DNA from: a virus
Direction: 5' to 3' (one strand)
Length of the DNA stretch: 52,458 nucleotides
IMG/VR virus record: IMGVR_UViG_3300027754_000128
Span: 1 to 52,458 of that record
In this document: one piece after another, positions 4,349 to 52,458 of the stretch
Layout: each line of letters starts with the position of its first letter
Position numbering within the stretch: the stretch's first letter is position 1
Notes under the pieces: generated by a model
Told to the model about the DNA's origin: nothing
Seen by the model: the letters and a program-made list of their open reading frames with translations, nothing else
Database searches by the model: none
Position numbers and translations under genes: made by a program

Positions 4349-4559
4349 GACTTGCTCCATTGATTTTGAGGCAGGAAACCCGTGTGCCGCTCGGCACGAC
4401 GTTCGCGAGGCTGACGAGGTCGAGCGCGCAGGCGGTGGGTGACGACAGTGCCTTGCCGCGTGGGCGGCAGTCGGGGTCGCACTGCATGAGTTGCCAGCGC
4501 GGCGTGTCGGCCTGGGCCGGCAGCGCGATCAGGCAGAGCGCGAGCGCGAGGGGCTTCAT
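4335..4559 (-). CDS. Small exported protein, function unknown
   Basis: 74 residues beginning with a textbook signal peptide: MKPLALALCLIALPAQA, cleavage expected after QA at residue 17. The mature part has four cysteines spaced as two possible disulfide pairs (CDPDCR, TACAL, VSCLK). The start at 4559 overlaps the previous stop by ATGA. A secreted or periplasmic product inside an early replication/recombination operon is odd and hints at host-envelope modification, but no family is recognised. Confidence 0.7.
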   Translation of the reverse strand: MKPLALALCLIALPAQADTPRWQLMQCDPDCRPRGKALSSPTACALDLVSLANVVPSGTRVSCLKINGASHATK

Positions 4560-9272: not shown

Positions 9273-9931
9273 TCCGCGCACAGAACGAACGCGCCGTACC
9301 AGGCCACAACAAGACCAAATCCTTCACCGTCTCGGCTGAGACTTTGAAGGGATACGTCGATCGGCTTGAAAAGATGGACGAGGAAAAGAAAGCCGTCGCG
9401 GACGACATCAAGGACATCTACCAGGAATTGAAGGGCAACGGCTACGACGCAAAGGCCATCCGCACGATCGTGCGCGAGCGCAAGGTCGACGCAGCAGAGG
9501 CCGCAGAGCAGGAGGCGATCCTCGACACCTATCGCCACGCCCTTGGGATGGCCGTACAGGCGGTTCGTGACGGTTCAAGCCAGCGCAGTGCTGCCAAGGC
9601 GCATGGCGTCTCACGGTCATATCTGGGCCGTGTCGTGGGTGGCCCCTCCGCAGAAAATGTGGAGCAGGGGCCGGGTACGGAGATTCTGGAAACGACGGGA
9701 GCGGTTCCGTCGGGTGGCGACCAGGGGACGGCAGATGTAACGACTGCCCAGCCCTCGGTTGCCGCCAACTCATCGGCCTCGCAGGGCATGGTGATCGCCC
9801 GGACACCGAGGATGGCCGGCGCTGCAACGCCATCCATCCAGCCGACCGTCAGTGGCGAGGCTGGCGGCGGCACTCATCCAGACGACATCGATCTCACGAT
9901 CCCCGCGCACCTTCTGCGGAAGCTCGCGTAG
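9269..9931 (+). CDS. GapR/DUF2312-like DNA-binding protein with extra HTH domain
   Basis: 220 residues. Residues about 20-90 match the GapR/DUF2312 signature: LKGYVDRLEKMDEEKKAV, then IYQELKGNGYDAKAIRTIVR and REQEAILDTY-like end. GapR is an alphaproteobacterial nucleoid protein that grips overtwisted DNA. A second segment (SSQRSAAKAHGVSRSYLGRVV, about 108-128) is a HTH, followed by a long low-complexity tail. The fusion is longer than cellular GapR (about 90 residues). A role in phage DNA topology or host nucleoid takeover is inferred. Confidence 0.75.
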   Translation: MIRAQNERAVPGHNKTKSFTVSAETLKGYVDRLEKMDEEKKAVADDIKDIYQELKGNGYDAKAIRTIVRERKVDAAEAAEQEAILDTYRHALGMAVQAVRDGSSQRSAAKAHGVSRSYLGRVVGGPSAENVEQGPGTEILETTGAVPSGGDQGTADVTTAQPSVAANSSASQGMVIARTPRMAGAATPSIQPTVSGEAGGGTHPDDIDLTIPAHLLRKLA

Positions 9932-11169
9932 TGCGTTATCTCAGCGTCTGCTCTGGCATCGAGGCCGCCTCGGCTGCCTGGCATCCGCTGGGATGGACGC
10001 CTGTGGCGTTCAGCGAGGTCGACAAGTTCCCGTCCGCCGTCCTCGCCCATCACTATCCCGATGTCCCGAATTGGGGCGACATGACCAAGTTCAAGGAATG
10101 GCCCGATGCAGATGTCGATGTTCTCGTCGGAGGCACCCCTTGCCAGTCCTTCAGCGTCGCAGGACTCCGAAAGGGCATGGACGATCCGCGTGGCAACCTG
10201 GCGCTTACCTATCTGGCGATTGCTGATCGATACAAGCCCACCTTCCTCTGCTGGGAAAACGTTCCCGGTGTCCTGTCATCGAACGGAGGACGGGACTTTG
10301 GTGCCATCCTCGGGGGCATGGTCGAACTCGGGTATGGCGTCGCCTACAGAGTGCTCGACGCACAGTTCTTTGGAGTTCCTCAGAGACGCCGTCGCGTCTT
10401 CGTTGTCGGACATCTTGGAGACTGGCGACGTGCCGCGGCGGTTCTTTTTGAGCAGCACAGCCTGCAAGGGCATCCTCCGCCGAGCCGCAAAGCGCGGCAA
10501 ACTGCTCCCACCATCCCTTCACGCCGCACTGCGGGCGGCGGCCTCAGGACCGACTTCGATTGCGACGGCGGCCTGATCCCTGAGCCCACGATCATGTCCT
10601 CCGGCCAGGCGAACGCGGAGATCCTCGAGGACGGCACGGGGCGCGGCACGCCGCTGATTCCCGTCGCCTTCTCGTCGAAGGACCACGGCGCCGACGCGGG
10701 CGACATCGCGCCCACCCTCCGCTCGATGGGCCACGACGGCAGCCATGCGAACGGCGGCGGACAGGTGGCCATCGCCTTCCAAGCCAATACGAACGGCGAC
10801 GACGGCATGGAGGTTGACGGCATTTCGGTGACGCTGAAGAGCGAAAGAATGCCTGCGGTAGCCTTCGATCTTCGCGGTCGGGAAGGCGGCGCACAATTCA
10901 AGGGGCCGCACGACACGGCGAACATTCGCGCGGCATCTGGTGGCTCGTCACGGTCCTATGTGGCTGCGATGCAGGTCCGCAGGCTGACGCCAATGGAGTG
11001 TGAGCGCCTCCAGGGATTCAGTGATGGGTACACTTTGGTCCCGTGGCGCCGCGGCATGTCGCCCGACGGACCTCGCTATAAAGCCCTTGGAAACAGCATG
11101 GCCGTACCCTGCATGCGCTGGCTGGGCGAACGCATCCAGATGGTTTCTGACCTGGAGGTAACGCCATGA
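9931..11169 (+). CDS. C5-cytosine DNA methyltransferase
   Basis: 412 residues. Motif I FxGxG variant SVCSGIEAA near the start, PCQS with catalytic Cys71 (GGTPCQSFS), ENV at 108-110, QRRRRVFVVG (motif VIII), and ALGNSMAVP near the C-terminus (motif X). The target-recognition region lies at about 165-345 and contains many Gly/Asp-rich repeats. No companion restriction enzyme is seen, so it is probably an orphan that protects phage DNA from host restriction. GTG start shares a base with the previous TAG. Confidence 0.9.
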   Translation: MRYLSVCSGIEAASAAWHPLGWTPVAFSEVDKFPSAVLAHHYPDVPNWGDMTKFKEWPDADVDVLVGGTPCQSFSVAGLRKGMDDPRGNLALTYLAIADRYKPTFLCWENVPGVLSSNGGRDFGAILGGMVELGYGVAYRVLDAQFFGVPQRRRRVFVVGHLGDWRRAAAVLFEQHSLQGHPPPSRKARQTAPTIPSRRTAGGGLRTDFDCDGGLIPEPTIMSSGQANAEILEDGTGRGTPLIPVAFSSKDHGADAGDIAPTLRSMGHDGSHANGGGQVAIAFQANTNGDDGMEVDGISVTLKSERMPAVAFDLRGREGGAQFKGPHDTANIRAASGGSSRSYVAAMQVRRLTPMECERLQGFSDGYTLVPWRRGMSPDGPRYKALGNSMAVPCMRWLGERIQMVSDLEVTP

Positions 11170-29582: not shown

Positions 29583-31978
29583 TGGGCGTTGTCATTCCCG
29601 ATGCTGCCGACTACGGCACCCCTGTCCCGCGCGCAGCGACGACCGTCCAGTCCTATGGTGTCGGCCAGCCTGTCCAGCAGGATGTCGCCGCATGGACCTA
29701 CGCCGCGCAGTCCGCCAAGGCCGCCGCCGATAGCGACGCCAAGGCGATGGAAGGCGTGGGCGTCGAGATTGCCAAGTGGTCCGACCAGCTCCAGACCACG
29801 CAGGCGCAGGACAGCCTCAACCAGTTGCGCGCACGCCGGCAGGAACTGACGACCGGCGACAACGGCTTTATGAAGGTGCAGGGCGGCAACGTCGTCAATC
29901 CGGCGGGCGGGCAGGGTACTTCGATCTACGAGACGTTCCCGACCCAGTTCCAGGGCCACGCCGACGACATTGGCTTGAAGCTCTCTGGCAAGGCCGCGAT
30001 GCTCTACAAGCAGGCGATGGCGGCCGAGATCACCGGCTTCAAGAGCGACGTTGCCCGGCACGGCCTTGCGGAGGGCGAGAAGTACCGCGGCGCCGTGTAC
30101 AAGGACTTGCAGACCCAGCTCGACAACAAGATCGCCTCCTCGAGCGACCCGGCCGAGGTCGACAAGGGGATCGCCGACAAGATCGCGTCAGCTACGCAGT
30201 ACGCAATCTCGATCGGCATGCCGGGCGCTGCGGCGGCAAAGGCTGCCGGTTCCGACGCTGCCATGCTGGTGATCCAGAAGGCGGTCAATACCGGCGACAG
30301 CGGCGCGGCGTCGGCTGCCCTCACGAAGTACGGCACCTACCTCGACGCCAAGGACCGCATCAGGGTCGACGGCCTGGTGAAGACGCTTGCAAATCAGGAC
30401 TCTGCGGTCTCCGAGGCCGGCGCCATTCGCGCCAGTGTACTGGGCGGCGGCACAGGCGGTGATCTGGACAACAATATCGGCAACATCACGACCAGCCAGT
30501 TCCAGTATTCTGGCGGCAAGGGCGCTCCAAAGGGAGCCTTTGAGACATTCCAGACGCCGGAACATGGCGTCGCTGCCGCCTATCATACGGTTCAAGCAAA
30601 GGCGAAGCAGAACGGCGGCACGATTTCGTTCATCGAACTGATCGGTGGCAACGGCAAGGTGAAGGGCTGGGCGCCGGCCGCTAACGGTAGTTCTGATCCA
30701 CTCCTCAAGGGCAACGACCCCAACTCCTATGCAGCGCGTCTTGCTGCGGCTGTCGGGCTGAAGCCAGGCGATGCCGTCCCCGTTGGGGATGATGCGAAGA
30801 TGCAAGCCATTCTTCGCATGATGAACGTACACGAGAAGGGTAAACAAACAGTCAAGGACGATGCCTTCGGCCGCGGCATTCAGTTGGCTAAGGGTGACAC
30901 GTCTGTTGTCGCCGCGCCCGCTGCCAAGCGTTCGTCAGACCCGCTCTTCGATGACGGGCCGGCTGTAGACCCGATGAGAGACCCGCTCGGCGGCAAAGAC
31001 AATGTAGTGGCGGGCCAGGAGAACGGGGCTCTCTACAAAGACCCCGATGCCCTGCTGTACCAACTCAACCAGCAGTTTGCCGCCATGACGCGCGCGAACC
31101 AGGAGCGTTTCGCCACCAACATCGGAAAGCGCACCCTAGTCCAGACGGAACTGGAACTCTGGCACACGGCGCAGAAGAAGCAGATCGAACAGATGCGCCT
31201 CGCGCAAAAGGTGAACCTGAACCAGGTGATGACGACCGGCGGTCCTGACGGCAAGGGGCCGACCCACGAGAAGCAGATCCCGACCGAGCTGTGGGCGCAG
31301 CTCTCGTTCCGCGAGCGCGAGAGCGTGACCAATATCATCAAGCACAATGCCAAAGGCACCGAGGCCGTGACCGACCAGCAGCACTGGTATGAGATCCAGC
31401 GCGGCCTGACGAGCGCCGACCCCGTGGAGCGCCAGAAGTGGGCCGACTACGACCTGTGGCAGTCGAAGGACAAGCTCGACAACAAGGATCTGCAGGAACT
31501 GGCGAAGATGCAGGGCGTCGTCCGCAGGGGCGATCCCGACAAGCAGACGACGCATGTCCGCAACATCAATCAACTGGTCGATGATACGTTGCTAAAGCTG
31601 AGGATCGACAGCACGCCCAAGGCCGGGTCGAACGATGCCACGAAGGCATACGAGTTCCGGCGCTTCGTGCAGGATCAAATCACCGCGCTTGAAGCGACAC
31701 AGCCCGGCAAGAAGGCAACCACCGAGCAGCAGCAGAATATCATCGACCGCGCGGCGCTCGACATCGTCATGAAGAAAGGCAGGCTCTGGGACGACACGAA
31801 GCCGCGCTACGCCCTTACCATCAAGGACATCCCCGCCGAGGACAAGACCAAGATCATCGACGCCCTGACGCGCAAGAACGCAGCAGAAGCCGCCGCCACA
31901 AAGACGCAACCCAAGGCAATCTCGGAGAGTGACATCATCGACGCATTCGCACGCAAGAACGCCCAGGCCCCGAAATGA
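29582..31978 (+). CDS. Internal virion protein with transglycosylase-like domain
   Basis: 798 residues. A domain at about 290-420 has NNIGNITTSQFQYSGGKGAP, FETFQTPEHGVAAAYHTV, then NGKVKGWAPAANGSSDPLLKGNDPNSYAARLA, the NNxGNI...F.tPe.G..a layout of peptidoglycan-degrading domains in phage structural proteins. The rest is helical (e.g. about 490-560). It probably opens a path through the cell wall during ejection, like T7 gp16. Overlaps its neighbours by 1-4 bases. Confidence 0.72.
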   Translation: MGVVIPDAADYGTPVPRAATTVQSYGVGQPVQQDVAAWTYAAQSAKAAADSDAKAMEGVGVEIAKWSDQLQTTQAQDSLNQLRARRQELTTGDNGFMKVQGGNVVNPAGGQGTSIYETFPTQFQGHADDIGLKLSGKAAMLYKQAMAAEITGFKSDVARHGLAEGEKYRGAVYKDLQTQLDNKIASSSDPAEVDKGIADKIASATQYAISIGMPGAAAAKAAGSDAAMLVIQKAVNTGDSGAASAALTKYGTYLDAKDRIRVDGLVKTLANQDSAVSEAGAIRASVLGGGTGGDLDNNIGNITTSQFQYSGGKGAPKGAFETFQTPEHGVAAAYHTVQAKAKQNGGTISFIELIGGNGKVKGWAPAANGSSDPLLKGNDPNSYAARLAAAVGLKPGDAVPVGDDAKMQAILRMMNVHEKGKQTVKDDAFGRGIQLAKGDTSVVAAPAAKRSSDPLFDDGPAVDPMRDPLGGKDNVVAGQENGALYKDPDALLYQLNQQFAAMTRANQERFATNIGKRTLVQTELELWHTAQKKQIEQMRLAQKVNLNQVMTTGGPDGKGPTHEKQIPTELWAQLSFRERESVTNIIKHNAKGTEAVTDQQHWYEIQRGLTSADPVERQKWADYDLWQSKDKLDNKDLQELAKMQGVVRRGDPDKQTTHVRNINQLVDDTLLKLRIDSTPKAGSNDATKAYEFRRFVQDQITALEATQPGKKATTEQQQNIIDRAALDIVMKKGRLWDDTKPRYALTIKDIPAEDKTKIIDALTRKNAAEAAATKTQPKAISESDIIDAFARKNAQAPK

Positions 31979-34900
31979 GCGGCCCCGACGAGCTCCAGCC
32001 CGCCGCTCCCGTTGACGACGGTCTGGCGCAACTGACGGCCGACCGCAATGCAGCCGATGTTCCGCCGCCGCCCACGCCGCCTGCCAGTGCGCCTGGCCCC
32101 GCCGTCACGAACGAGTACGATGCTCTTCTGGCAGAGGCGCCCGCGAAGCCGGTCAACGAATACGACGCCGTCGTGGAGGATCTGTCCCGCGAGCGCAAAC
32201 AGACTGTGCGCGGGAACCTCATTGGCGCGCAGGCGACCACGCCAGAAGCCGCCGCGAAGTCTCTCGACCTGTCGCGCAAGACCGGCCTGCCGGCTGACAT
32301 GGTCGAGCGAAACTTGCCCAAAGTCGAGGCCGATCACAGGCTGAACGAATACGACGCCATCCTCAACGCTTCGCCCAAGACGCAGACATGGATCGCGGGC
32401 GACCCGACGAACGCCAAGGTGGCGGGCGATGAGGTCAAGAGGTTGGCCGAGATCGAAGCCATCCTGAAGCCAAGGAACATGTACGACCGCAACAGGCCGA
32501 GCAAGGCCTCGCGCTCGATCGACAGCGAGTCGGCGGATTGGGAGGCGACGGCGTTCGGTCGTGCGGGCGGTATCGTCTATGATAACAAGGCGCCCGCCGC
32601 CGCTCCGCTCTACCAGTCGCAGTGGATGTCTGGCGTCGAGAATATGGCGCAGGGCTTCAACAAGATGTCGAACCTCAATATCGCCCGCGATATTCGGACG
32701 TTCGACGCGATCGACCAGGGTAAGCCTGTCAATACGGCTGATGATCCCTATGGCTACAAGGACATGTCGAGTGACCAGCGCGCCCAGACGCGCACGCTCG
32801 CCGAGGTCCAGATCGTCAAGAACGTCGCGGCTCTCAAGCGGTCGACCGCCTTCGTCGCCGATCTGCCGCGCAACCAGAACGTCCAGCCGTTCTTCGATGC
32901 CCTCGATGATGTGCAGGCCAAGGATATGCTTTCCGTTCTGACGGATGCTCTCGGCAAGATGTCGGCGGGGATGAATGGCGCCCCGCAGGCTGGCACTGCT
33001 GGCCCTTCGCCATTGGCCGCGGCCGGCAAGATATTCGCGTCCGATTCGCTGGGTATCATGCAGCAGCTTGCGGTGGAAACGACGCCCAACATGCTCCCGA
33101 TCATCGCGGGTTCGATCGTGGGTGGTCCTGTCGGCACTTTCCTGGCATCGCAAGCTGTCGATTTCCCGTCGCGAACCGACGACTGGATCAAGCAGGAACT
33201 GGCGAAGGAAAACAAGACCGGCGTCGAGTTCATTAATGTCAACGATCCCGAGGCCGTGCAGGCATATCTGCGCGCCAACCCCGCCTTCGCCGAGAAGGCG
33301 CAGAGGATGGGATATGCTGGATCATTCGGCCCGTCTGCTGTCGACGCCGTCTCGTTCGGAGCGACCCGCCCGTTCAAACGCGGCGCAGGTTTCGCCGCGA
33401 ATACCGGACGAGTGGCCGGCAACATCGCGATGGATACCGGCCTTGAAATGGTTGGTGAGGCCGCCGGGCAGATCATCAGCGGACAGGACGAGATCAAACT
33501 CAGTGAGATTGTCGCCGAGGGATTGGGCGCGTTCCCGCATGGCGCCTCCAATACCGTTGTCGCAACGGCGCGGGAAGCATCCCGCGCCAGTACCGAGGCC
33601 AAGACCGAGGCCGCCGTCAAGGAGATCAAGGCGACCATCACGGCCGCCAACGAGTTCCTGACCGACCTGCGGACGCACGTCGCGGAGACGGAGACGCTGA
33701 CGCTCGATGACCTTGTCGACAAGGTGCAGGGCAGCACCCTCCACAAGCTGTCGCCCGAGAAGATGAAGGACTTCCTCGAGTCGCTGTCTCCTGACGAGCA
33801 GAAGGCCGACGTGTTCATCTCGTCGGATGCGGTCAGCACGCTGTTCCAGGACATGTCGGTCCTGGAGCGCGATACGCTGGCCGAGAACCTCGGCATCACC
33901 GAGCAGCTCAATTCGCTGGGCCTCAACGCCAACACCGACATCGTGATCCCGCTGCCGGTCTACCTGACGGCGATCGGCGATGCTCACAAGGCGTGGCGCG
34001 ACGACGTTCGCATGGACTTCATGGGGTTCTCCAACCGGGAGGCCATTGCGGAGGGCAAGGCCAAGGCCGAGGAGACCGCCGCTGCGGTGGCGCGCTTCGA
34101 GGAGCAGGTCGCTGCCGGCGTGCAGGATAGCCCGCAGGAGATCGTCTACCAGCAGGTGTTGGGGATGCTGAAGGCGAACGGCTTCACCAATGAGCAGGCT
34201 TCCCAGCAGGCTGCCTATGCTGCCTCGCGCTACCATGCTCGTGCGGTTCGCAGCCCGCAGATGTTCACCGACGCCCTGGATGCGTTCACGCAGTACCCGT
34301 TCACCATCCGCTCGCACCTGGGCGACGGCATCCGGGTGATCGGCCCTGACCAGCTCGACATCATGCTCGACAGCATCCGGTCGGGCAAAGATCCGGTGAT
34401 CACGCCGGCCTTCGCCCACATCGAGGCGCGCAAAGCTGCGGCCGAGGCAGAGTTGTCGACGGTCCTCGGCGAGGCACCTGTCGTCAAGACGCCCAAGCAG
34501 ATCGCGGACGAACGCAAGGCTGCCGCGCTGGGCGTGTTCCAGGCTCGCCGTCAGGAACTGGCAGACTGGCTCGAGAGCCGCGGCCTCGACCTCAAGACGG
34601 CGACCAACGCGCAGATCCGCGCCGAGATCGAGAAGGTCCAGAAGGGGACCAGCTACAACCAAGACGATGTTCTGGTTGTTAAGCAGCCCCTTTCCGACAG
34701 TTTGATCATGGTCGCCCAGCGTGGCGATCGGGCGACTGGTAATCGGCTTCTCCTGTCTACTGAAGAGAAGGCGGCCATTGCCGCGTCTGTCGGGCCGAGC
34801 GGTCTATCGGTTGCAGAAATCACCGCGACCGTTCGCAAGCACAAACTGGCCCATCCGCCGGCACAGAACTGGGAGCCTCTGGTCTTCATCAAGGCCCGCC

Positions 34901-37900
34901 TCGACAAAAAGGGCAAGCCTGAGTTCATGTACAAGTTGGTTCCCTATAGCTTCATCAGGGACAACGACGGCAAAGAGATTCAGCCATCGGAGAAGAAATA
35001 CGCGGGCAGGGTCAAGGCGCTCGGCGACGCTATTGCGGAAGAGGTTCGTGGCATCTATCGCCGCGCCGCTGCTGGCGACAAGAACGCCCAGAACATCCTG
35101 GCCCAAGCCGGCTGGTACAAGGCAATGCGTGCCAGGCTGCGCCAAGAGTTCGGTGGCCTGGGTGACCTGTTTGCCGACGCTCTCGGAGCCACGTCGCCCA
35201 ATACGCCCGTGCGCGGGAACTGGGAGAATGCGGTCGACAGCTTGCGCCGCGCGAGCCGTGGTGACTTTGATGCACTGATGCCGCAGTGGGTAGCCTGGTC
35301 TGAGAATATCGACCGGCTCGAGACCGACCTCCGCGCGTTCGTAAACGAGCAGCGCGCCAAGAAGCAGGCCTCGAAGAGCGAGCCCTGGATGGACAGCGAT
35401 AAGCCGCAGACCTTGAAGTCCATCAAGGAGATGCAGGAATACATCGATAAGAGGAAGGCTCTGTCTGAGGCGCGTGAACTGCCGCCCGACCTCATGCCGA
35501 CCAAGGAGAGTGGCGCACAGTACGGGTTCAACGGTCGCAACGTGGTGCGCGCCATGCTCGACCTGTGGCGCACAATCAAGGACGCTGATCCCGATATCGG
35601 ACGTAGCGGCACTGCGCCCAAGGCGCTCAATTTCTCTGGCAACCTCATTGGGTTCCGGGGCAAGGCGACGATCGATGTCTGGGCCGCGCGCCTGCTGCAG
35701 CGTCTGGCCGGCAAGCGCCGCATACCCAGCATGGCAGAGATAGCCGTCTCCGGTGAGATGCTTGCTGATGCTTCGACAACGGGCCAGTTCGGCTTCGGGC
35801 AGGACACTTTCGCGCATGCCGTTGCCGTCATCAGATCCGACAGCGAGATGAGCCAGGACTCTGCTCTCGCAAAAATCAATGACGACGACCTACAGGCTGT
35901 TGTCTGGTTCATCGAGAAAGAGGTCTGGACGGTCAACAACTGGACAAGCGTCTCAGGGGAGGGAGGCTCGTTCGAGTTGGAAGCCAACCTCACCGGCACG
36001 GCCAAGCAGGCCCGTGTTCGCGAGCTGCGTAAGATCATCGACAGCTCCCCGTCCGCGGCCGATGTGAAGGCGGTGGCCGGCGCCGACGCAGTCTCGGCAA
36101 AGGTCGAGGCGTGGGATGCTGAACACAAAGCGGAACTCGATGAACTGGGAGAGATCAACCAGCGCCTCGCGTCGGATACCCTGTCGAAGAAGGAAGCATC
36201 CGGTCTAAAGAAGCGCGCGGCAGAACTGCAGAAGGCCACTAAGCTGCCGAAAGAAATCGCGCAGGAGATGCGCGACGTTGCCAACGGCCAGCGACGGATT
36301 GACGAGCGCGCTGCCCAGAAGGTGTTGGCGCGGGCGGAACTGGCAACCCTTGAGCGTCCCGTCGATCGCTACGTCGGCGGTCTGTCCACGCAGATGTCGA
36401 TCGACAACCAGGGGGTGGACTACGTCCCGACCGACGCCGACATGGCCCGCTTGGGTGATGCCATCCGGCTGGCGATCTACGAGAACGATGCCACTGCAAA
36501 CGTGCTGGCCTCCAAGGCCCTGCCGACCGAGGGCCGCTACGGCAGCGTGGAGCGTTCGCTCGACCTCGAGATTGTGGCTCGCGAGGGCTACGATCCCAGC
36601 ACGGTCTGGGCCGAGATGCTGCGCCAGGCGCAGGAAGCGCGGCAGGACTCGACCTTCCTCTCCCGCGTTCTGCGGGATGGCGAGGAGATCGATTACACCA
36701 AGCACCGGCCCGGCATTGAAATATACTTCCGCGATGCCGCCGCCGCCCAGCAGCTTGAGAAGATGTTGGCCGACCTGGCGAAGGAGGGGGTGTCCTTCCT
36801 GACGGTCTCTGTCGACGGGCGCCGGATGCCCGGTTATGTGGCCGGTGCCATGCCGGCAGCGGTCGGCGTGCGCCTGCAGTACGTCCCAGAGTTCGAGCAA
36901 AGGTACGGAATAGACGACCTTTCGGGCTTGGATGACGCGGCCATTGCGGATAAGATGAAGGCCAAAGGCGACGAACTGGACGACGTTGCGATGCGCGTCG
37001 CCACCAATGTTTCAGGCGTCTCGTTTGCTGGCGTTTTCTGGCATGAGACACAGGTGGCATTCAGCCATCAGTATCAGGAGAAGATCGATGGTCTCGCAAC
37101 TGGAAGAACTGAAGCGGAAGCTGGCGCGACTGGACCCGGAGGGTGGGTCGGACAATCCGTTCGTGCAGGGCTTGCGGATGCAGATCGCCAGTCGCGAGAA
37201 GCCGCGAGCGGAGAACCCGGTGGGCAACGAGAGCCGGTGGTCGGCGGGGATGAGGGCAGCACCGGACGCGCCGGAAAAGGCGTAACTCTCAACCAGTCCG
37301 TCTACCACGGCGGCCCGCGCATCTTCGACCGCTTCAGCCTCGACTATATTGGAACGGGAGAGGGCGCGCAGGCTTTCGGTTGGGGATTATACTTCGCGTC
37401 GAAGAAGGCTCTCGCGGCGCACTATCGCGACAAGCTATCTCCCGCTGGCCCCGGTGCCGTCGAGTATCAGGGCAAGATGGTCCTCACCTCGGACGGCAAG
37501 CCTCTTCGCGCGCGGCCCGAGTGGCTGAAGGATTGGGGCAACGATCTGCAGGCGCTGATCGAGGTTGCAGTCGACGGCAACATGACATTGCCGGAGGCCA
37601 TTGCCGAGGTCCGCGCCGCCGCTAAGCAGGTCGGGTTTATCCGTCGCTTTCTGGGCTACGGCTTTAACGAGCGGTTCCTGCAGGCGATCCTCGACAAGGG
37701 CTACACCATTGGCGACTCGCAGAAGGGCCGCCTCTACACCGTCGAGATCCCCGACGATGGCGCGTACCTGCTGTGGGACAAGCCGCTCAGTGAGCAGAGC
37801 AAGGTTCTTCGCGACGCACTGCCCGCACTGATCCAGAAATACGGCGGTGACCTCTCCAAGATCATTGGCGCCAACGGCCAACTGCGCGACAGCGTGACGG

Positions 37901-40900
37901 GCGAGTCCGTCTACCGCGCACTGTCGGCGGCTATGGCGAACAAGCCAATCGATGAAAGCGGCATGGCGGGCTGGACGCGGGTCCAGAATACCGTCAACGA
38001 CCGAATGGCGAACGACAAAGCCGCCTCCCTCGCCCTGCTTGCCGCAGGCATCCCCGGCATCAAGTACCTCGACGGCTCGTCGCGGCGGAAGGGCGATGGC
38101 GATCACAACTATGTGCTGTTCGATGACAGCCTCGCCAAGATCACGCAGTACGAGCAAGACAAACGCGGCTCGATCACGTTCGGCGATACGTCCGCCACGG
38201 TCGACCTCTACCAGGCCCGCAACCCGTCCACGCTGCTGCATGAGATGTGGCACAAGTGGTTCGGCGAGTTCGAGTTCGATGTCGCCCACCTCGGCGCCAG
38301 CGAGCAGATGCGGGCGGACTTCAAGGTGCTGCTCGACTTCGTCGGCTCGACGGACGGTCGCATTGGACTGAGCGCCTACGAGGGCGGGCGGGTGAATACA
38401 CTGCGCGCCAAGATCGACGCCACGGGCGAGAAGAGCCTCGACGGCGCGGAAGCCGAGGAGTGGGCCGCGCTGAAGGTCCGCATCGAGCAGAACGAGAAGC
38501 TGGCCCGTGCCGGCGAGGTCTACCTCATGGAGGGCAAGGCCCCGTCCGACGCCCTCCGCAAGGTGTTCCGCGCCTTCAAGTCGTGGCTGCTGGGCGTCTA
38601 CCGCAATATGCGGAATCTGCAGGCGCCGATCTCTCCCGAGGTCCGCGCGGTGTTGGACCGCATGCTGGCGACCGACGAGGAGATAGCCTCGCTGAACGAT
38701 CGGCAGGGGCTGAACCCCGTGCTGGAGTACGCCAAGGAACTGATGAGCAAAACTGAGTTCGCCGCCTACACGAAGAAGACCGCGGACGTACTCGAGGACC
38801 AGCAGGACGCACTGTTCGCCAAGGTATCGGGCGACCTCCGCAAGCAGGCCAAGGGCGAATACGTCAAGGAACGCGCCAAGATCCGGGGCGAGGTCACCGA
38901 CGAGATGATGGCGGAACCCGGCCAGCAGGCGCTGCACTTCCTAAAGAAGGGCGTCATGTCTGCCGGCGAGACGCCTGAGATACTGAAGGGCCGCAAGTTG
39001 TCCCGCGCCGGCCTGATAGAACTGATCGGGCAGGAGGGGCTGAACACGCTCCCGGCGGGCATCTATGCGGAAGAGGGGCTTTCCCCCGACGAGATGGCGC
39101 CGCTGTTCGGGCTGGGCAACGGCATGGAGTTGGCCGAGCGCCTGATGCAGATCGCCGCCGAGGACAAGGCGTGGAAGGACAAGGGCGGGCGCGGCACCGC
39201 CGTCCAGTCGCGGATCGCAGAGGAGACCCAGAGGCGGCTCACAGAGGCCCTGGGAGACCCGCTGAACGACGGCAGCATCGAAGCCGAGGCTTGGGCCATC
39301 GTCCACTCGGACAAGCGCCTGGACCTCATGGCAGTCGATCTGCGGATGCTTGCGCGCAAGGCCGGGCAGACCGGCGCGGTGAGCATCGTGGACATCCAGA
39401 ACTGGGCGGCCGAGCAGATCGGCGGCATGTCGTCGTATCAGGCGACACAGGTCGCGCGCTACCAGCGCGCCGAGCGGATGGCGGGCCAGCAGGTCCAGAA
39501 GGCCCTCGTGAAGGGCGACTGGGTGGCTGCGTTCAAGGCCAAGCAGGACCAGGTCTACAACTTCGCGCTCTACAAGGAGGCGATGAAGGCGTCCGACGAT
39601 GCTGGCAAGATCACGGCCTACCTCGACAAGCTGGCCGGCGCCCGCAACATCAAGGCCCTCGACCAGAACTATCTCGACTCCATCCACGGTCTCCTCGAGG
39701 AGTACGACTTCAAGAAGCGCAGCGGCACTCTGCTGACCGATCGCACCCGCTTCAACGCCTTGGTCGCGGAGCAGGCGTTGATGGGCGTCGAGGTGCAAGA
39801 GCCGCCTTACCTGAAGGGGGCCGAGCGCAAGCACTTCTCGCAGATGACGATGGATGAATTGCGCGCCGTCTACGAGGCAATCAAGCAGCTCGATCGCCTT
39901 GGCCGAGACATCAAGAAGGTGATGCTCGACGGCAAGAAGGTCGCGCGCGATGCTGTGCTGACCGAGATGGAGGCGACTGCTGCTGCCGGCGTGCAGCGCG
40001 GCTCCAGTCTCAGCAATCTCGGCAAGACCGAGATCCAGAAGAGCGTCGGCAAGGCCAAGCATATCTTGCGTCTGGGCAACGCCAGCCTGCTCAAGATCGA
40101 GCGGCTGCTGGAGTTCGCGGACGGCGATGTGACCGGCAACGGTATCTTTTCGCGCGCGATCTACCGGCCCATCGCCAACGCTGCCCACGCCACCAACGAT
40201 GAGCGCGTCGATAACAGCAAGCAGTACAAGGTGATCTACGAGAAGGTGCCGCTCGAGCAGCGCAATGCCTGGTCGACAATCCACACGCTTCCCGAGCTTG
40301 GCGGCAGGAAGCTCTCAAAAGAGAACATCATCTCGATAGCTCTCAACATGGGCAACGAATCGAACCTCGAGAAGCTGATCAAGGGCTATGGCTGGAGCTA
40401 CGAGGGTGTTCGCGCGGTCGTGAACAAGTACCTCACGAAGGAAGAGTGGAGGTTCGTTCAGGACAAGTGGGACTTGATGCAGTCTCGCTGGCCTGCCTAC
40501 GCCGCGATGATCCGCGACATCGAGGGCGTCGAACCTCCCAAGATCGAGGCCGTCCCTCTCGAGACACCGTTCGGAACGCTGCCCGGCGGCTACATGCCGG
40601 TCCAGTATGACCGCAACGAGAGCCTGGAAGCACAAAAGATCGGCGAGGCGCAGGACAGTGCGTTGCTGCAGGGCATGGCAATATCGCCCCGCGCCAATGT
40701 ACCGTCCACGAAATCTGGATCGTCCATCGAGCGCACCGGCTTCACTGGTCCCATCCTGCTGGAACTGAGTGTCATCGGTAAGCATCTGGACGAGGTCGCC
40801 CACGACACCCACCACCGTCGTGCCGTGGCGGACGTTTTCAAGATCATCTCAAACGACCGCTTCCGCAAGGCCATCCAGTCGCGGCTCGGCGTCGAGTACG

Positions 40901-42045
40901 AGGCAACCTTCATGCCGTGGTTGATCCGCGTGGCTAACGAGGCGCGCGTAGCCAACGTCGAGCTGGCCGGGCCTGACTACATGATGCGGGCGCTGCGGGT
41001 GAACGTGACGCAGATGGCGATGGGCCTGCGCGTCTCGACCATGGTGCAGCAGGTCGCGGGCTTTGCCGCATCGGCTGCGAATCTGGGCGCCAAGGATCTG
41101 GGCTCCGGCTTCTGGGAATACATCCAGAACCCCAAGGCCGCCGCTCGCGAGGTCTACGCGAAGTCGGGCGAGATGCGCCACCGCGCCAACAACCTCGAGC
41201 GCGACATCAAGGCCAACCTCGACAAGTTCCGCGGGAGTACCAAGAGGATCTCCCGCGCGCGGGACGACATCGGACGGTTTGCCTTCCGCGGCATCGCGCT
41301 GATGGACCTCGCGGTGTCGATCCCGACGTGGCTGGGCGCCTACAAGCAGGGCCTGACCAAGGGCATGCTCGAGGCTGATGCCATTGCCTACGCCGACAAG
41401 ATGGTGCGCGACACGCAGGGTGCCGGCGGCGTCAAGGATCTGTCGGCCTTCCAGGGTGGCGGCGGCGAGGGCTGGAAGCTCCTCGGCATGTTCTATTCGT
41501 TCCTCAACGTCTACTACAACGCGCAGGCCCGCATGCTCGAGGCCGCGCGCAAGCCCGGCAAGACCTTCTCCGAGCATGTCGACCTCTGGTGGATGGCGAC
41601 CATGTGGATGGCCGTGTCGCCGCTGTTGGCCGCCGCCGTGTCGGGGCAGGGACCGGACGACGACGAAGACCCGCTCTACTGGGCCATGCGGACGGTGGGC
41701 TTCGGCGCCTTTGCCGGCATCCCGGTCGTGCGCGATGCAATGAGTACGATGTCCCGCGAGATGGGCGGCAAGCCAACGGCCGGCTTCCAGATGTCTCCCG
41801 TGACCGGGCCGATCTCCGGGTCCACGCGCCTGGTGAAGGATTTGATCAACCTCGCGAGCGGCGAGGATGTCAGCAAGAACTTCACCAAGAACACCTTCAA
41901 CGTGATTGGCGGCTTCACCGGCCTGCCAACAGGGCAGATCGGCGTGACCTCGCAGTTCCTGTGGGACACGCTCTACTCCGGGGCAGAAAACCCCGAGAAC
42001 ATTCTGGAATGGCTCCGCGGCCTCACGTTCGGGCCCAAGAAGTAG
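31975..42045 (+). CDS. Giant polyvalent ejected virion protein (3356 aa)
   Basis: By far the largest gene, in the place of the largest internal core protein. Segments I can see: N-terminal repeats of NEYDA (residues ~43-125); a Gly/Ala hydrophobic region near 370-400; large helical regions; a central domain with WYKAMRARLRQEFGGLGDLF (~1045); an ADP-ribosyltransferase-like segment from VYHGGPRIFDRFSLD to AFGWGLYFASKKALA (Y1777/H1778); and a zinc-peptidase-like HEMWH at 2089-2093. The C-terminus has hydrophobic MFYSFLNVYYNAQ (~3172) and WWMATMWMAVSPLLAAAV. The gene is open without a stop throughout. The segment at about 1705-1770 has unlike codon use and contains a second frame (37088-37285). 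Confidence 0.85.
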   Translation: MSGPDELQPAAPVDDGLAQLTADRNAADVPPPPTPPASAPGPAVTNEYDALLAEAPAKPVNEYDAVVEDLSRERKQTVRGNLIGAQATTPEAAAKSLDLSRKTGLPADMVERNLPKVEADHRLNEYDAILNASPKTQTWIAGDPTNAKVAGDEVKRLAEIEAILKPRNMYDRNRPSKASRSIDSESADWEATAFGRAGGIVYDNKAPAAAPLYQSQWMSGVENMAQGFNKMSNLNIARDIRTFDAIDQGKPVNTADDPYGYKDMSSDQRAQTRTLAEVQIVKNVAALKRSTAFVADLPRNQNVQPFFDALDDVQAKDMLSVLTDALGKMSAGMNGAPQAGTAGPSPLAAAGKIFASDSLGIMQQLAVETTPNMLPIIAGSIVGGPVGTFLASQAVDFPSRTDDWIKQELAKENKTGVEFINVNDPEAVQAYLRANPAFAEKAQRMGYAGSFGPSAVDAVSFGATRPFKRGAGFAANTGRVAGNIAMDTGLEMVGEAAGQIISGQDEIKLSEIVAEGLGAFPHGASNTVVATAREASRASTEAKTEAAVKEIKATITAANEFLTDLRTHVAETETLTLDDLVDKVQGSTLHKLSPEKMKDFLESLSPDEQKADVFISSDAVSTLFQDMSVLERDTLAENLGITEQLNSLGLNANTDIVIPLPVYLTAIGDAHKAWRDDVRMDFMGFSNREAIAEGKAKAEETAAAVARFEEQVAAGVQDSPQEIVYQQVLGMLKANGFTNEQASQQAAYAASRYHARAVRSPQMFTDALDAFTQYPFTIRSHLGDGIRVIGPDQLDIMLDSIRSGKDPVITPAFAHIEARKAAAEAELSTVLGEAPVVKTPKQIADERKAAALGVFQARRQELADWLESRGLDLKTATNAQIRAEIEKVQKGTSYNQDDVLVVKQPLSDSLIMVAQRGDRATGNRLLLSTEEKAAIAASVGPSGLSVAEITATVRKHKLAHPPAQNWEPLVFIKARLDKKGKPEFMYKLVPYSFIRDNDGKEIQPSEKKYAGRVKALGDAIAEEVRGIYRRAAAGDKNAQNILAQAGWYKAMRARLRQEFGGLGDLFADALGATSPNTPVRGNWENAVDSLRRASRGDFDALMPQWVAWSENIDRLETDLRAFVNEQRAKKQASKSEPWMDSDKPQTLKSIKEMQEYIDKRKALSEARELPPDLMPTKESGAQYGFNGRNVVRAMLDLWRTIKDADPDIGRSGTAPKALNFSGNLIGFRGKATIDVWAARLLQRLAGKRRIPSMAEIAVSGEMLADASTTGQFGFGQDTFAHAVAVIRSDSEMSQDSALAKINDDDLQAVVWFIEKEVWTVNNWTSVSGEGGSFELEANLTGTAKQARVRELRKIIDSSPSAADVKAVAGADAVSAKVEAWDAEHKAELDELGEINQRLASDTLSKKEASGLKKRAAELQKATKLPKEIAQEMRDVANGQRRIDERAAQKVLARAELATLERPVDRYVGGLSTQMSIDNQGVDYVPTDADMARLGDAIRLAIYENDATANVLASKALPTEGRYGSVERSLDLEIVAREGYDPSTVWAEMLRQAQEARQDSTFLSRVLRDGEEIDYTKHRPGIEIYFRDAAAAQQLEKMLADLAKEGVSFLTVSVDGRRMPGYVAGAMPAAVGVRLQYVPEFEQRYGIDDLSGLDDAAIADKMKAKGDELDDVAMRVATNVSGVSFAGVFWHETQVAFSHQYQEKIDGLATGRTEAEAGATGPGGWVGQSVRAGLADADRQSREAASGEPGGQREPVVGGDEGSTGRAGKGVTLNQSVYHGGPRIFDRFSLDYIGTGEGAQAFGWGLYFASKKALAAHYRDKLSPAGPGAVEYQGKMVLTSDGKPLRARPEWLKDWGNDLQALIEVAVDGNMTLPEAIAEVRAAAKQVGFIRRFLGYGFNERFLQAILDKGYTIGDSQKGRLYTVEIPDDGAYLLWDKPLSEQSKVLRDALPALIQKYGGDLSKIIGANGQLRDSVTGESVYRALSAAMANKPIDESGMAGWTRVQNTVNDRMANDKAASLALLAAGIPGIKYLDGSSRRKGDGDHNYVLFDDSLAKITQYEQDKRGSITFGDTSATVDLYQARNPSTLLHEMWHKWFGEFEFDVAHLGASEQMRADFKVLLDFVGSTDGRIGLSAYEGGRVNTLRAKIDATGEKSLDGAEAEEWAALKVRIEQNEKLARAGEVYLMEGKAPSDALRKVFRAFKSWLLGVYRNMRNLQAPISPEVRAVLDRMLATDEEIASLNDRQGLNPVLEYAKELMSKTEFAAYTKKTADVLEDQQDALFAKVSGDLRKQAKGEYVKERAKIRGEVTDEMMAEPGQQALHFLKKGVMSAGETPEILKGRKLSRAGLIELIGQEGLNTLPAGIYAEEGLSPDEMAPLFGLGNGMELAERLMQIAAEDKAWKDKGGRGTAVQSRIAEETQRRLTEALGDPLNDGSIEAEAWAIVHSDKRLDLMAVDLRMLARKAGQTGAVSIVDIQNWAAEQIGGMSSYQATQVARYQRAERMAGQQVQKALVKGDWVAAFKAKQDQVYNFALYKEAMKASDDAGKITAYLDKLAGARNIKALDQNYLDSIHGLLEEYDFKKRSGTLLTDRTRFNALVAEQALMGVEVQEPPYLKGAERKHFSQMTMDELRAVYEAIKQLDRLGRDIKKVMLDGKKVARDAVLTEMEATAAAGVQRGSSLSNLGKTEIQKSVGKAKHILRLGNASLLKIERLLEFADGDVTGNGIFSRAIYRPIANAAHATNDERVDNSKQYKVIYEKVPLEQRNAWSTIHTLPELGGRKLSKENIISIALNMGNESNLEKLIKGYGWSYEGVRAVVNKYLTKEEWRFVQDKWDLMQSRWPAYAAMIRDIEGVEPPKIEAVPLETPFGTLPGGYMPVQYDRNESLEAQKIGEAQDSALLQGMAISPRANVPSTKSGSSIERTGFTGPILLELSVIGKHLDEVAHDTHHRRAVADVFKIISNDRFRKAIQSRLGVEYEATFMPWLIRVANEARVANVELAGPDYMMRALRVNVTQMAMGLRVSTMVQQVAGFAASAANLGAKDLGSGFWEYIQNPKAAAREVYAKSGEMRHRANNLERDIKANLDKFRGSTKRISRARDDIGRFAFRGIALMDLAVSIPTWLGAYKQGLTKGMLEADAIAYADKMVRDTQGAGGVKDLSAFQGGGGEGWKLLGMFYSFLNVYYNAQARMLEAARKPGKTFSEHVDLWWMATMWMAVSPLLAAAVSGQGPDDDEDPLYWAMRTVGFGAFAGIPVVRDAMSTMSREMGGKPTAGFQMSPVTGPISGSTRLVKDLINLASGEDVSKNFTKNTFNVIGGFTGLPTGQIGVTSQFLWDTLYSGAENPENILEWLRGLTFGPKK
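37088..37285 (+). CDS. Nested out-of-frame ORF inside the giant gene
   Basis: 65 residues in +1 relative to the giant frame: MVSQLEELKRKLARLDPEGG... FVQGLRMQIASREKPRAENP. It has AGGAG 7 bases before its ATG and about four fifths G/C in third positions by eye, versus about half for the host frame there. The host frame at this place is a low-complexity Gly/Ala/Glu linker. This looks like a true small gene overprinted or trapped by fusion of two larger genes. Confidence 0.5.
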   Translation: MVSQLEELKRKLARLDPEGGSDNPFVQGLRMQIASREKPRAENPVGNESRWSAGMRAAPDAPEKA

Positions 42046-49908: not shown

Positions 49909-49930
49909 CCCAATGTTTATTGGGAAAAAA
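49909..49930 (-). terminator. Weak terminator for integrase transcript
   Basis: CCCAAT (49909-49914), loop GTTT, ATTGGG (49919-49924). Read on the minus strand the hairpin is followed by TTTTCGG. The stem is only 6 bp. It would end minus-strand transcription coming from int. Confidence 0.45.
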
Positions 49931-49975
49931 TGGTGGGCGCTGTAGGGATTGAACCTACGACCCCACCCGTGTGAA
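49931..49975 (-). other. attP core: 3' half of a tRNA-Val (CAC)
   Basis: On the minus strand the sequence contains an anticodon loop TTCACAC (49975-49969), a T-arm GTAGG-TTCAATC-CCTAC, the acceptor strand AGCGCCC and A-CCA at 49931-49933. The 5' acceptor strand is absent and the anticodon stem is broken at 31-39, so it is not an intact tRNA. The D-arm side (AATCAGCGGG) still resembles a tRNA. Best read as the phage attachment core restoring a host tRNA-Val(CAC) gene on integration. Confidence 0.82.
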
Positions 49976-49998
49976 CGGCGTTCTGCCCGCTGATTTCA

Positions 49999-50985
49999 TT
50001 AGACAATTCGCTTTCTCCCCCGTTTCTCCCCCATTAGAATCACGACCCCACGGTCAGGCGTTACCGGCGATCGGTGGTGAACGTAGCGGCCGGCAGATCG
50101 TTCGTCGCGCCACAGTCCGCGCTCGGCGATGGCGCGCATATCGTATCCCAGCGCCCGCAGATCGGTCGCCATTGCGTGCCTCGACTGGTGTGGCGTGTAG
50201 GTGACCTTCAGGCGGGCGCACAGGGGCTTCAGCCACCTGTAGACGTTGTGCCGGTCACCCCAGGGGAAAACGCGCCCAGAGGGCAAATGCGGGGCGCTGG
50301 CGAGCATTGCTACCAGTTCGGGCGACAGACCTATCTCACCGATGTCATCCGTCTTGGTGGAGCCGACGCGGGCAGTGGCGGCCGGAAGGTCGAAGTCCTC
50401 GCGGCGCAGGCGCAGGCTGTCGGTGATCCGCTGGCCTGTCTCATACAGCCAGACGAGGAACAGGTGCTTGTGTCCGGTCGTGTTCGCCAACAACAGCCGC
50501 ATCGTGTCAGCGGCGACAGGCCGGCGGGGCGAGCGGCGGGATACCTTCAGCCGGCGGTGGCGGCGGTCGGCGCACCATCCTTGCTCGGCGGCGAAGTGCA
50601 GGATCGAGGAGGCGGGGCCAATCACAGCGCGGTTCTTGTTGCTGTCGCTTGTGCGGGGGCAGAGCGCGTGCGCTGCAGTCGTGAGGTCGGAGCCGATCAT
50701 ATCGCCCACAAGCTTGTCGCCAAAGAACCGCACCAGCCGGTCGATATAGGCGAGGTCTTGCTTGCCTAGCCGCTTGCCCTGAAGGAAGGCGTGGGCGGCC
50801 TCGCGGAACGAGACTACCGCGCCAGGCTCACGACCTTTGATAGCGGCGAAGAACTGTTCGGCTTCTTTCTTTGCATCTGCGAGTTTCGTCGCTGCCAGTA
50901 CTTTCTCAACTTGTCGTCCGTTACTTGGCCCGCGAACAACGAAGGTCCGGTTGCCTTTGCGGGAACCGGGCGCGTAGAACTGCAT
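49999..50985 (-). CDS. int: Tyrosine-recombinase integrase
   Basis: 328 residues. Catalytic residues in order: Arg186 (ETGQRITDS), Lys211 (GSTKTDD), His266 and Arg269 (PHQSRHA), Trp292 (GLWRDE) and the nucleophile Tyr301 (AGRYVHH). The N-terminal region (FREAAHAFLQGKRLGKQD) is the core-binding SAM-like domain. The start at 50985 has AAGGAG 9 bases upstream; longer versions overlap the excisionase frame more. Its 3' end contains the right arm-site repeats, next to attP. Confidence 0.92.
   Translation of the reverse strand: MQFYAPGSRKGNRTFVVRGPSNGRQVEKVLAATKLADAKKEAEQFFAAIKGREPGAVVSFREAAHAFLQGKRLGKQDLAYIDRLVRFFGDKLVGDMIGSDLTTAAHALCPRTSDSNKNRAVIGPASSILHFAAEQGWCADRRHRRLKVSRRSPRRPVAADTMRLLLANTTGHKHLFLVWLYETGQRITDSLRLRREDFDLPAATARVGSTKTDDIGEIGLSPELVAMLASAPHLPSGRVFPWGDRHNVYRWLKPLCARLKVTYTPHQSRHAMATDLRALGYDMRAIAERGLWRDERSAGRYVHHRSPVTPDRGVVILMGEKRGRKRIV
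50012..50032. repeat. Integrase arm-site candidates, right pair
   Basis: TTTCTCCCCC at 50012-50021 and again at 50023-50032, 11-base period. The pair lies within the last codons of int (encoding GEKRGRK). Together with 49816-49835 it flanks the attP core, as arm-type binding sites do. Confidence 0.55.
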
Positions 50986-51152
50986 GCGGCGCGCTCCTTG
51001 GCTTTGAGTGTTTCGATGTCCGCGTCCTCGAGCCTGGCGCGGCGGCCGGTGCCGATCGTGGCGATACCGTGCCGGGCCAGCGCCCGCGTCAATGTACGAC
51101 GGGACCATCCCATGTGAACAGCGGCGGCGGTCAGGGTGATCGGCTCACTCAT
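50814..51152 (-). CDS. xis: Excisionase-like HTH protein
   Basis: 112 residues. ITLTAAAVHMGWSRRTLTRALARHGIATIGTGRRARLEDADIETLKA is the excisionase/MerR-like winged helix (HTH, then a wing with GTGRRARLE). It overlaps int in another frame by 172 bases, much longer than in lambda. The C-terminal part is basic and low in complexity. ATG at 51152 overlaps the stop of the small membrane-protein gene. A directionality factor is the likely role. Confidence 0.72.
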   Translation of the reverse strand: MSEPITLTAAAVHMGWSRRTLTRALARHGIATIGTGRRARLEDADIETLKAKERAACSSTRPVPAKATGPSLFAGQVTDDKLRKYWQRRNSQMQRKKPNSSSPLSKVVSLAR

Positions 51153-51213
51153 GGGCTTCCCGCCCAGGCCAGGAACTCGACGTACCGGATCACCAGCCAG
51201 ATCGCGCCGGGGA
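51108..51213. repeat. Right copy of terminal overlap (identical to 1-106)
   Basis: Same 106 bases as 1-106, inside the excisionase and membrane-protein genes. Downstream bases diverge. See 1-106 for interpretation. Confidence 0.85.
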
Positions 51214-51283
51214 TCACCACAAAGAGGACTAGGGCGACAAGGCCGACCTTGGTGACGACGGCTAGAGCGTCTTCGCTAATCAT
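51149..51283 (-). CDS. Small single-pass membrane protein (haplotype B)
   Basis: 44 residues, same length as 42-176. The C-terminal 20 residues (GAIWLVIRYVEFLAWAGSP) are unchanged; residues 10-24 differ (VVTKVGLVALVLFVVIP instead of AARVGIVAAVLFVVVP). The start at 51283 follows GGAGAACAC. Stop overlaps the excisionase start. Same gene, second allele. Confidence 0.75.
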   Translation of the reverse strand: MISEDALAVVTKVGLVALVLFVVIPGAIWLVIRYVEFLAWAGSP

Positions 51284-51483
51284 GTGTTCTCCAGTGCTGC
51301 GCGGGCGGCTTTTTGAACCGCAAACAAAACGTCAGCGTCGATGATGCCGTCCACGCCAACCAATTCTGCGGTGGCCGCAACTCTCAGCGCAGCCCGCAGC
51401 CGCTCTATCTCGTCGGCGGCTTCATACATCGTAGCCAGCGTGCCGGCCTCGCGGCGCAGCCTCTCTACTAGGTCATCGGTCAT
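51280..51483 (-). CDS. Small coiled-coil cassette protein (haplotype B)
   Basis: 67 residues, short form of the 88-residue protein at 173-439. Same N-terminus (DDLVERLRREAGTLATMYEA) and the EIERLR unit, then a different C-terminal half (VGVDGIIDADVLFAVQKAAR) and ALENT. It seems to have been formed by exchange at the EIERLR segment. Start follows GGAGAACAC. Confidence 0.7.
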   Translation of the reverse strand: MTDDLVERLRREAGTLATMYEAADEIERLRAALRVAATAELVGVDGIIDADVLFAVQKAARAALENT

Positions 51484-51797
51484 GTGTTCTCCCTCGCTTT
51501 GGCGATGGCGGCGCGGGCGACGTAGTAGCCGAGTGGCGTTTCATCAAGGTCTAGGCAGTCGATGCTTTCGAGGATGCCTTCCAGCGCAGCCCGGAGCCGC
51601 TCGATCTCTGCATCGGATGCGCGGCGGTTCCATGCGGCGATGGCTTGGGTTTCGGTCGAGTAACGAGAGTCGCCGTCGCCCGCGCAACCTACCTCACCAT
51701 CGCAATAAATTTCCCACCCGTCGATGCGATTCTCGTCACGAAAGGTAGCAACGCGAGCGCCGCAAAACGGACACGGATTCAGTGCTTCATCGCTCAT
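51480..51797 (-). CDS. Lar-like zinc-finger protein (haplotype B only)
   Basis: 105 residues. LNPCPFCGARVATFRDE, then YCDGEVGCAGDGDSRYSTETQAIAAWNRRA matches the Lar restriction-alleviation layout (N-PCPFCG...C...C.....A...WN.R). Lar of Rac protects against type I restriction, so an anti-restriction role is plausible. The C-terminal part has the EIERLRAAL unit and ends ARENT. Not present in the first version of the slot. Confidence 0.75.
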   Translation of the reverse strand: MSDEALNPCPFCGARVATFRDENRIDGWEIYCDGEVGCAGDGDSRYSTETQAIAAWNRRASDAEIERLRAALEGILESIDCLDLDETPLGYYVARAAIAKARENT

Positions 51798-52153
51798 GCT
51801 GGCACCTCTTGCTGGTGTGGGCCGGTGACGCGGATGCAAGCCGTGTCGTCCCATTTAGACAAGACCTTGGCGTAGTCCTGTGCTTCAGCTTCCACATGGA
51901 AGGACGCGGAAAATGGATAAAAGGCGGGTCCGTTGATTTTCGTTTGCGCGTATTCAACCCTCCACACCTCGACCATCTTGGTCTTGGGTAGGGTGGACTC
52001 GGCGGCGTCTGCGAGGGCCTTCGCCAAATCCTCGCGGATGTTCAGAAAGACGCCCGATCCAGACGGCTTGCCAAACGGACCGCTTGGGCCAAACAGCATT
52101 GGTGTCTGGCGTGCTGCGCGGATTGCCTCGCGCAGTTTGTCTGCATCGCTCAT
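51794..52153 (-). CDS. Cassette protein (haplotype B only), function unknown
   Basis: 119 residues (MSDADKLREAIRAARQTPML...). Helical N-terminus, then GPFGKPSGSGVFLNIREDLAKALADAAE, and a beta-rich C-terminal half (MVEVWRVEYAQTKINGPAFY...). It starts with the cassette signature GGAGAACACATGAGCGATG. The end differs (EVPA) but still supplies GAGGTG to the next gene. No family recognised. Confidence 0.65.
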   Translation of the reverse strand: MSDADKLREAIRAARQTPMLFGPSGPFGKPSGSGVFLNIREDLAKALADAAESTLPKTKMVEVWRVEYAQTKINGPAFYPFSASFHVEAEAQDYAKVLSKWDDTACIRVTGPHQQEVPA

Positions 52154-52401
52154 GTGTTCTCCTTCCGGGCGCGGATGGCGGCGGCGGCTTCGTCAAGTTC
52201 AGCGCCGACAGCCCAGCCGATTCGGCCTCCATTCAGGCGCTCGCAGACCTTCGCCGCTTCCTCCAGCACCGCATCCCGTTCCGGTTGGGGCCGGCGGGAG
52301 AGTAGGGCGCGGGCGACGATAAGGGCGTCAAGTGCACGCGGAAGCTTGGTATCGAAATCAGTCACAATCCGCTTCGCTGCTTCCAGTTCGTCTAGGGTCA
52401 T
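52150..52401 (-). CDS. Cassette protein (haplotype B only), helical, function unknown
   Basis: 83 residues (MTLDELEAAKRIVTDFDTKL...). Entirely helical with RALDALIVARALLSRRPQPERD and AAKVCERLNGGRIGWAVG. Ends RKENT, the shared cassette ending. Its start overlaps the HNH stop by ATGA. No family recognised. Confidence 0.65.
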   Translation of the reverse strand: MTLDELEAAKRIVTDFDTKLPRALDALIVARALLSRRPQPERDAVLEEAAKVCERLNGGRIGWAVGAELDEAAAAIRARKENT

Positions 52402-52458
52402 GTCCCGCGCTCCACTTCGACAGCAGCCTTGCCTTCCGGGCTAAACGCGGAAATCCAC
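52398..52458 (-). CDS. HNH nuclease-like protein, 3' fragment at window edge
   Basis: The last 19 codons and stop of a second copy of the DUF968-like gene (WISAFSPEGKAAVEVERGT), protein-identical to the end of 1173-1589 though with silent changes. It marks where the two slot versions rejoin. Partial because the window ends. Confidence 0.75.
   Translation of the reverse strand, partial: WISAFSPEGKAAVEVERGT

Follow-up and report, generated by a model that had tools for sequence, protein, structure and literature searches.

Two gene contents of one accessory slot at the ends of a putatively circular temperate-phage contig

Why should the two ends of a phage contig share a stretch of sequence and then carry different genes? 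The window analyzed here is an entire IMG/VR record of 52,458 bases, and its ends are therefore the ends of a contig. The first-pass annotation had pointed to an exact identity between these ends, which holds:

1-106, no strand assigned: exact repeat at the version A end, comprising the start of xis and the 3' half of the TM gene; identical to 51108-51213
51108-51213, no strand assigned: the same exact repeat, version B

Past this repeat, similarity of 92% runs on to 190/51297. A piece of a coil gene recurs as well (351-448 versus 51395-51492, 91%), as does the 3' end of an HNH gene, as previously described (1173-1233 versus 52398-52458, 61 bp, 92%). The recurring end pieces are well above chance, with blastn E values of 7e-73, 2e-33, and 2e-19. 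Ahead of the HNH end, the two segments measure 1172 and 1290 bases, and the earlier figures of 1173 and 1291 were right to within one base. Simple terminal redundancy was considered and is ruled out, as the repeat diverges after 106 bp.

Beyond the identical 106 bp, the two ends hold two different contents of what we term the slot, both on the minus strand. Version A comprises a TM gene, a coil gene, an XF1762 (Mom-like) gene, and a gene for an 89-aa protein:

42-176, minus strand: 44-aa one-helix (TM) protein, version A; 86% amino acid identity to version B and 85% to L209 2167-2292
173-439, minus strand: 88-aa coil protein, version A; its N-terminal 30 aa are 90% identical to version B, and a related coil occurs in the dissimilar phage L292
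429-887, minus strand: XF1762 family/Mom-like protein (NF045478, phrog_1384), frame broken near the C-terminus at 517-526
907-1176, minus strand: 89-aa protein with a Cys/His-rich N-terminus; the open reading frame ends in the junction variant GGAGAGCACATGA

Version B comprises TM, coil, and Lar-like genes followed by genes for 119-aa and 83-aa proteins:

51149-51283, minus strand: 44-aa one-helix (TM) protein, version B; 86% amino acid identity to version A
51280-51483, minus strand: 67-aa coil protein, version B; N-terminal part common with the version A coil
51480-51797, minus strand: Lar-like restriction alleviation protein with a coil tail (PF14354); 89% DNA identity to L292/L287 over 51619-51798
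51794-52153, minus strand: 119-aa protein, no family matched
52150-52401, minus strand: 83-aa protein, 40% identical over 67 aligned positions to a 124-aa slot protein of L209
52398-52458, minus strand: 3' end of the version B HNH gene, truncated where the contig stops; 92% to 1173-1233

The gene lists drawn up earlier were right overall, except that the 44-aa TM gene had been missed in both copies. What had been called a zinc-ribbon gene is present as the 89-aa protein with its Cys/His-rich N-terminus, but it matched no family in Pfam or NCBIfam. The coil proteins form a pair of alleles with a common N-terminal part and different C-terminal parts.

Some of the slot genes probably act against host restriction, and putative anti-restriction genes are present in both versions. 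Family matches lend weight to the anti-restriction content proposed from the first reading. The Lar-like protein scores 40.2 bits against PF14354 (cut-off, 28.6) and falls narrowly below the cut-off for TIGR03655 (37.5 versus 39.6). In profile searches, the XF1762 protein reaches 174 bits against NF045478 (cut-off, 50; E value of 1.3e-51) and an E value of 1.5e-33 against phrog_1384, "Mom-like DNA modification protein," while its score against Pfam Mom (PF25680) is 14.3, below the cut-off of 27.1. Outside the slot, a DNA methyltransferase-like gene at 9931-11169 (phrog_116, E value of 1.5e-90) is a possible further anti-restriction gene.

Unlike those of its relatives, the XF1762 frame is not intact, shifting at the 10-base tract at 517-526. 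In L084 and L085 the frame reads through and continues, with mixed glycine codons, to a conserved C-terminal tail; in the window, the homologous tail sits in another frame past the tract and ends in the usual ENT stop/start junction. The tract is C10 (G10 in the gene) and is the only homopolymer of at least 8 in the 52 kb, and none of 80 matched relatives has a G/C run longer than 5 at this position. Sequencing error, decay, and phase variation are all possible causes. With 0.75 G/C runs of at least 10 expected in shuffles, the homopolymer is not improbable by base composition, and we therefore make no claim of phase variation.

On its upstream side the slot is flanked by HNH, followed by a DNA-binding protein, NinB, and Erf; on its downstream side, on the minus strand, come xis and the integrase and then a tRNA 3' end:

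1173-1619, minus strand: HNH/DUF968/Ref-like nuclease, inner flank, version A (PF06147, E value of 2e-7; phrog_2321 Ref-like, 1e-5)
2572-3114, minus strand: NinB/Orf recombination mediator (phrog_72, E value of 2.6e-19)
3605-4360, minus strand: Erf-like single-strand annealing protein (phrog_2324, E value of 2e-32)
49929-49980, no strand assigned: probable attP core, a tRNA 3' end whose CCA end and T-loop show on the minus strand; these 52 bp are 96% identical to sequence beside the L003 integrase
49999-51108, minus strand: integrase, 61% to the L003 integrase and weakly similar to integrases of named phages
50814-51152, minus strand: excisionase-like HTH protein (xis), outer flank (phrog_1840 excisionase, E value of 9e-6; 67% to L003)

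Translation of the integrase probably begins at an internal Met near 50985, with the sequence MQFYAPG seen in L003. The tRNA 3' end beside it is a probable attP core and, judged by eye, possibly derives from tRNA-Val. ARAGORN found no complete tRNA in the window, which fits a tRNA fragment at attP. By terminase, the closest named phages are Acidovorax phage AP1, Limnohabitans phage DC33, and the Bordetella BPP-1 group (43-45%). A DNA search of named phages with the window gave no match, nor were close relatives of the integrase and the DNA-binding protein present among named phages or relatives of the integrase in bacterial genomes. In the structural region, 31975-42045 is one open frame of 3356 codons.

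To interpret the two versions, we turned to relatives. The IMG/VR record IMGVR_UViG_3300006805_000019 (G032; loci L209/L295; 34,739 bp) was the sole match in a search with the TM protein and is collinear with the window over its body. On one contig it carries Erf, NinB, HNH, two linker-joined small genes, TM, and lysis genes, thereby joining genes from the left end of the window to genes near its right end. Its single slot holds a third haplotype, unlike A and B, and int and xis are absent from beside it. The more distant phage L003 (related int/xis, with the 61% integrase) likewise has one slot, with other genes, in the order HNH-slot-xis-int-att. A comparison of related phages over the HNH-xis interval, proposed with the first-pass annotation, thus found a single slot in each, differing in content (L003, and G032 without xis). 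Conserved flanks around different content are seen in A, B, G032, and L003, and, as far as these sequences indicate, one slot per genome is the rule among the relatives found.

With a single slot in each relative, we favor reading the two slots of the window as alternative versions, produced by an assembly that ran past its own start. We consider it probable (about 0.72) that the contig goes once round a temperate-phage genome of about 51.1 kb, circular or circularly permuted, and then runs ~1.35 kb into a second coexisting variant. The earlier proposal of a circular genome assembled past its origin into a second variant is in this way supported by the comparison with G032 and L003. The ends would then overlap within an accessory slot of hypervariable content, whose place in the minus-strand gene order is Erf-NinB-DNA-binding protein-HNH-[slot]-TM-xis-int, and what appears to be a single phage population would have two gene contents in one slot with the recombination edge visible. 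A true duplication, in which one attachment site holds a tandem of two related prophages (or a concatemer), both with their own int, xis, and slot, is very unlikely. Its appeal is that the gene orders at the right end (int-xis-slot) and at the left end (xis-slot) fit head-to-tail prophages, and that the attP-like tRNA 3' end adjoins int. However, relatives have one slot, the contig is without a second int, and no host sequence was recognized.

The recombination edge itself emerges from the TM gene. Within this gene, A and B differ at 0 of the 55 sites at window positions 52-106, where G032 differs from each at 9 of 55; over the next 73 sites, A and B differ at 16, with 9 differences between G032 and A and 15 between G032 and B. 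The contrast between the two intervals (0/55 versus 16/73) gives a Fisher p of 7e-5, or 5e-6 when counted as 0/106 versus 16/100, indicating a mosaic breakpoint at 106/107, inside the TM gene at the slot edge, with the caveat that the contig start could be a k-mer common to two branches of the assembly graph, one that the reads of both versions must contain. This pattern of differences is hard to obtain under a simple clonal history, and a recombination edge at 106/107 accounts for it. The mosaic breakpoint supports the exchange that had been suggested for the slot.

An alternative is an assembly misjoin, with slot A belonging to the genome and the final 1.2 kb to a different phage in the sample that has the same xis/TM stretch. 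Past the breakpoint, the homologous pieces are just 78-92% identical; given differences of 8-22%, version B might come from the slot of a different phage through a join at the common 106 bp. The contig also ends shortly afterwards, inside a divergent HNH allele. Yet even an otherwise divergent phage would have to match these 106 bp exactly, an identity that in itself implies recent recombination, and gene order agrees with that of relatives up to the very end. We regard a misjoin as unlikely and favor one circular genome read into its second variant.

Slot content is probably replaced through homologous recombination in the conserved flanks, with xis/TM on one side and HNH/NinB on the other, and perhaps also at repeated 13-bp junctions and a common 23-bp coil-coding segment. 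Erf and NinB lie near the slot, and the phage's own Erf-type annealing protein would be a likely catalyst. Homologous exchange on diverged sequences is established for Rad52-like recombinases, and Erf of phage D3 drives recombination between sequences 78% identical (PMC3945230). The slot is an ordinary but clear and well-supported case of phages swapping small accessory genes. Variable hotspots with anti-phage systems have been described in P2-like phages and P4-like satellites, and these are, like the slot, hotspots of genetic variation with exchanged content; they hold anti-phage systems, whereas the slot holds short putative anti-restriction genes and unassigned genes (PMC9122126).

The position of the slot has a counterpart in lambda. 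In the leftward operon of lambda, the interval from xis to exo holds ea8.5, ea22, orf61, orf63, and orf60a and is variable in lambdoid phages, and lambda and Rac carry restriction alleviation genes (ral, lar) in the same part of the genome. The slot matches this accessory interval in position, with small genes on one strand, between excisionase/integrase and recombination genes, that vary among relatives. The phage differs from lambda in carrying Erf and NinB and in its terminase, which most resembles those of the Acidovorax AP1/BPP-1 group, and its slot has other gene families and stereotyped SD-ATGA junctions. The slot genes probably act early.

These junctions recur at the following sites:

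173-185, 436-448, 907-919 (one mismatch), 51280-51292, 51480-51492, and 52150-52162, minus strand: junction GGAGAACACATGA (SD plus ATGA stop/start overlap), from a motif scan

The six matches, allowing at most one mismatch, compare with 0.03 expected in 52 kb, and all fall in the two slots, three in each. Each consists of two elements, a ribosome-binding site with the SD consensus (A)AGGAG and the 4-base ATGA stop/start overlap, and the short slot genes so linked would be translated as a coupled row. The junction joins the slot genes of G032 too. It is also carried by L292/L287, together with a coil gene and a Lar gene with 89% DNA identity to its slot B counterpart; in the stretch compared, these phages are otherwise without DNA similarity to the window, and the Lar similarity between slot B and L292 begins at the start codon. 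In L292:9253-10600 (also in L287), a coil gene, a gene for a 64-aa protein, a 9-codon mini-frame (MSDPTKENT), and Lar are joined by GGAGAACACATGA, and ahead of the array a long repeat-rich protein runs in frame into the coil gene as a fusion.

Two views of the junctions can be weighed. To the first we give about even odds: the repeats would reflect selection for a single site that efficiently combines ribosome binding with a stop/start overlap, a view in which gene exchange plays no part and which is compatible with any reading of the two contig ends. It draws on the SD consensus and ATGA and on the frequency of the same coupled sequence in unrelated phages; in the loci scanned, 107 of 146 exact copies are coupled ENT-stop/M junctions, in phages of many kinds. 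Because unrelated phages commonly carry GGAGAACACATGA for plain translational coupling, it does not have to be a site of recombination, and efficient translation could account for it without any other factor. Set against this are the confinement of GGAGAACACATGA to the slots within the window and the Lar gene common with L292, whose similarity starts at the start codon.

The second view, rather doubtful, is that the SD-ATGA junction and a common coil segment serve as standard connectors, with annealing recombinases swapping single small early genes, even gene halves, between unrelated phages. The 23-bp coil-coding segment is common to both coil genes and the tail of the Lar gene. On this view, the slot would be a rapidly reassorted array of host-countering genes, and uniform junctions would provide a simple criterion for locating short phage counter-defense genes that lack annotation. 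Conserved boundary sequences are a standing proposal as drivers of phage mosaicism, and as in the slot, short stretches common to the borders of modules could allow homologous exchange (PMC3029335); the slot boundary differs in doubling as a ribosome-binding/overlap site and is a candidate exchange site only. Start-associated sequences (SAS) in Cluster K mycobacteriophages, with the consensus GGGATAGGAGCCC ahead of many gene starts, are similar in that one short repeat precedes the starts of unrelated small genes, sometimes including the upstream stop codon (PMC3203893). Compared by consensus, the two are distinct sequences, and SAS are spread over many genes, whereas GGAGAACACATGA is a stop/start overlap in one slot only.

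Elsewhere, stereotyped junctions take other forms. Among 354 loci, not picked for complete early regions, repeated 12-mers with a coupled ATGA end occurred, besides the window copy, in two loci with 3 copies of one 12-mer and in none with more. A linker search of bacterial genomes returned 28 scattered single matches, many in actinobacteria. Coil relatives elsewhere have other junctions, which speaks against GGAGAACACATGA as an exchange device. A search for MSDDLV starts found mostly unrelated sequences and, in other phages, a distinct stereotyped junction, GGAAAGGCTGACACATGA, suggesting that stereotyped junctions may be lineage-specific. Junctions of this other kind (e.g., GGAAAGGCTGACACATGA) stand ahead of MSDDLV coil genes in L325-L336 and L339. 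On the minus strand of L173, a long run of small stop/start-coupled genes has near-identical AAGGAGAAGAACACATGA junctions and a Lar-like start, MTNLEVMKPCPFDG.
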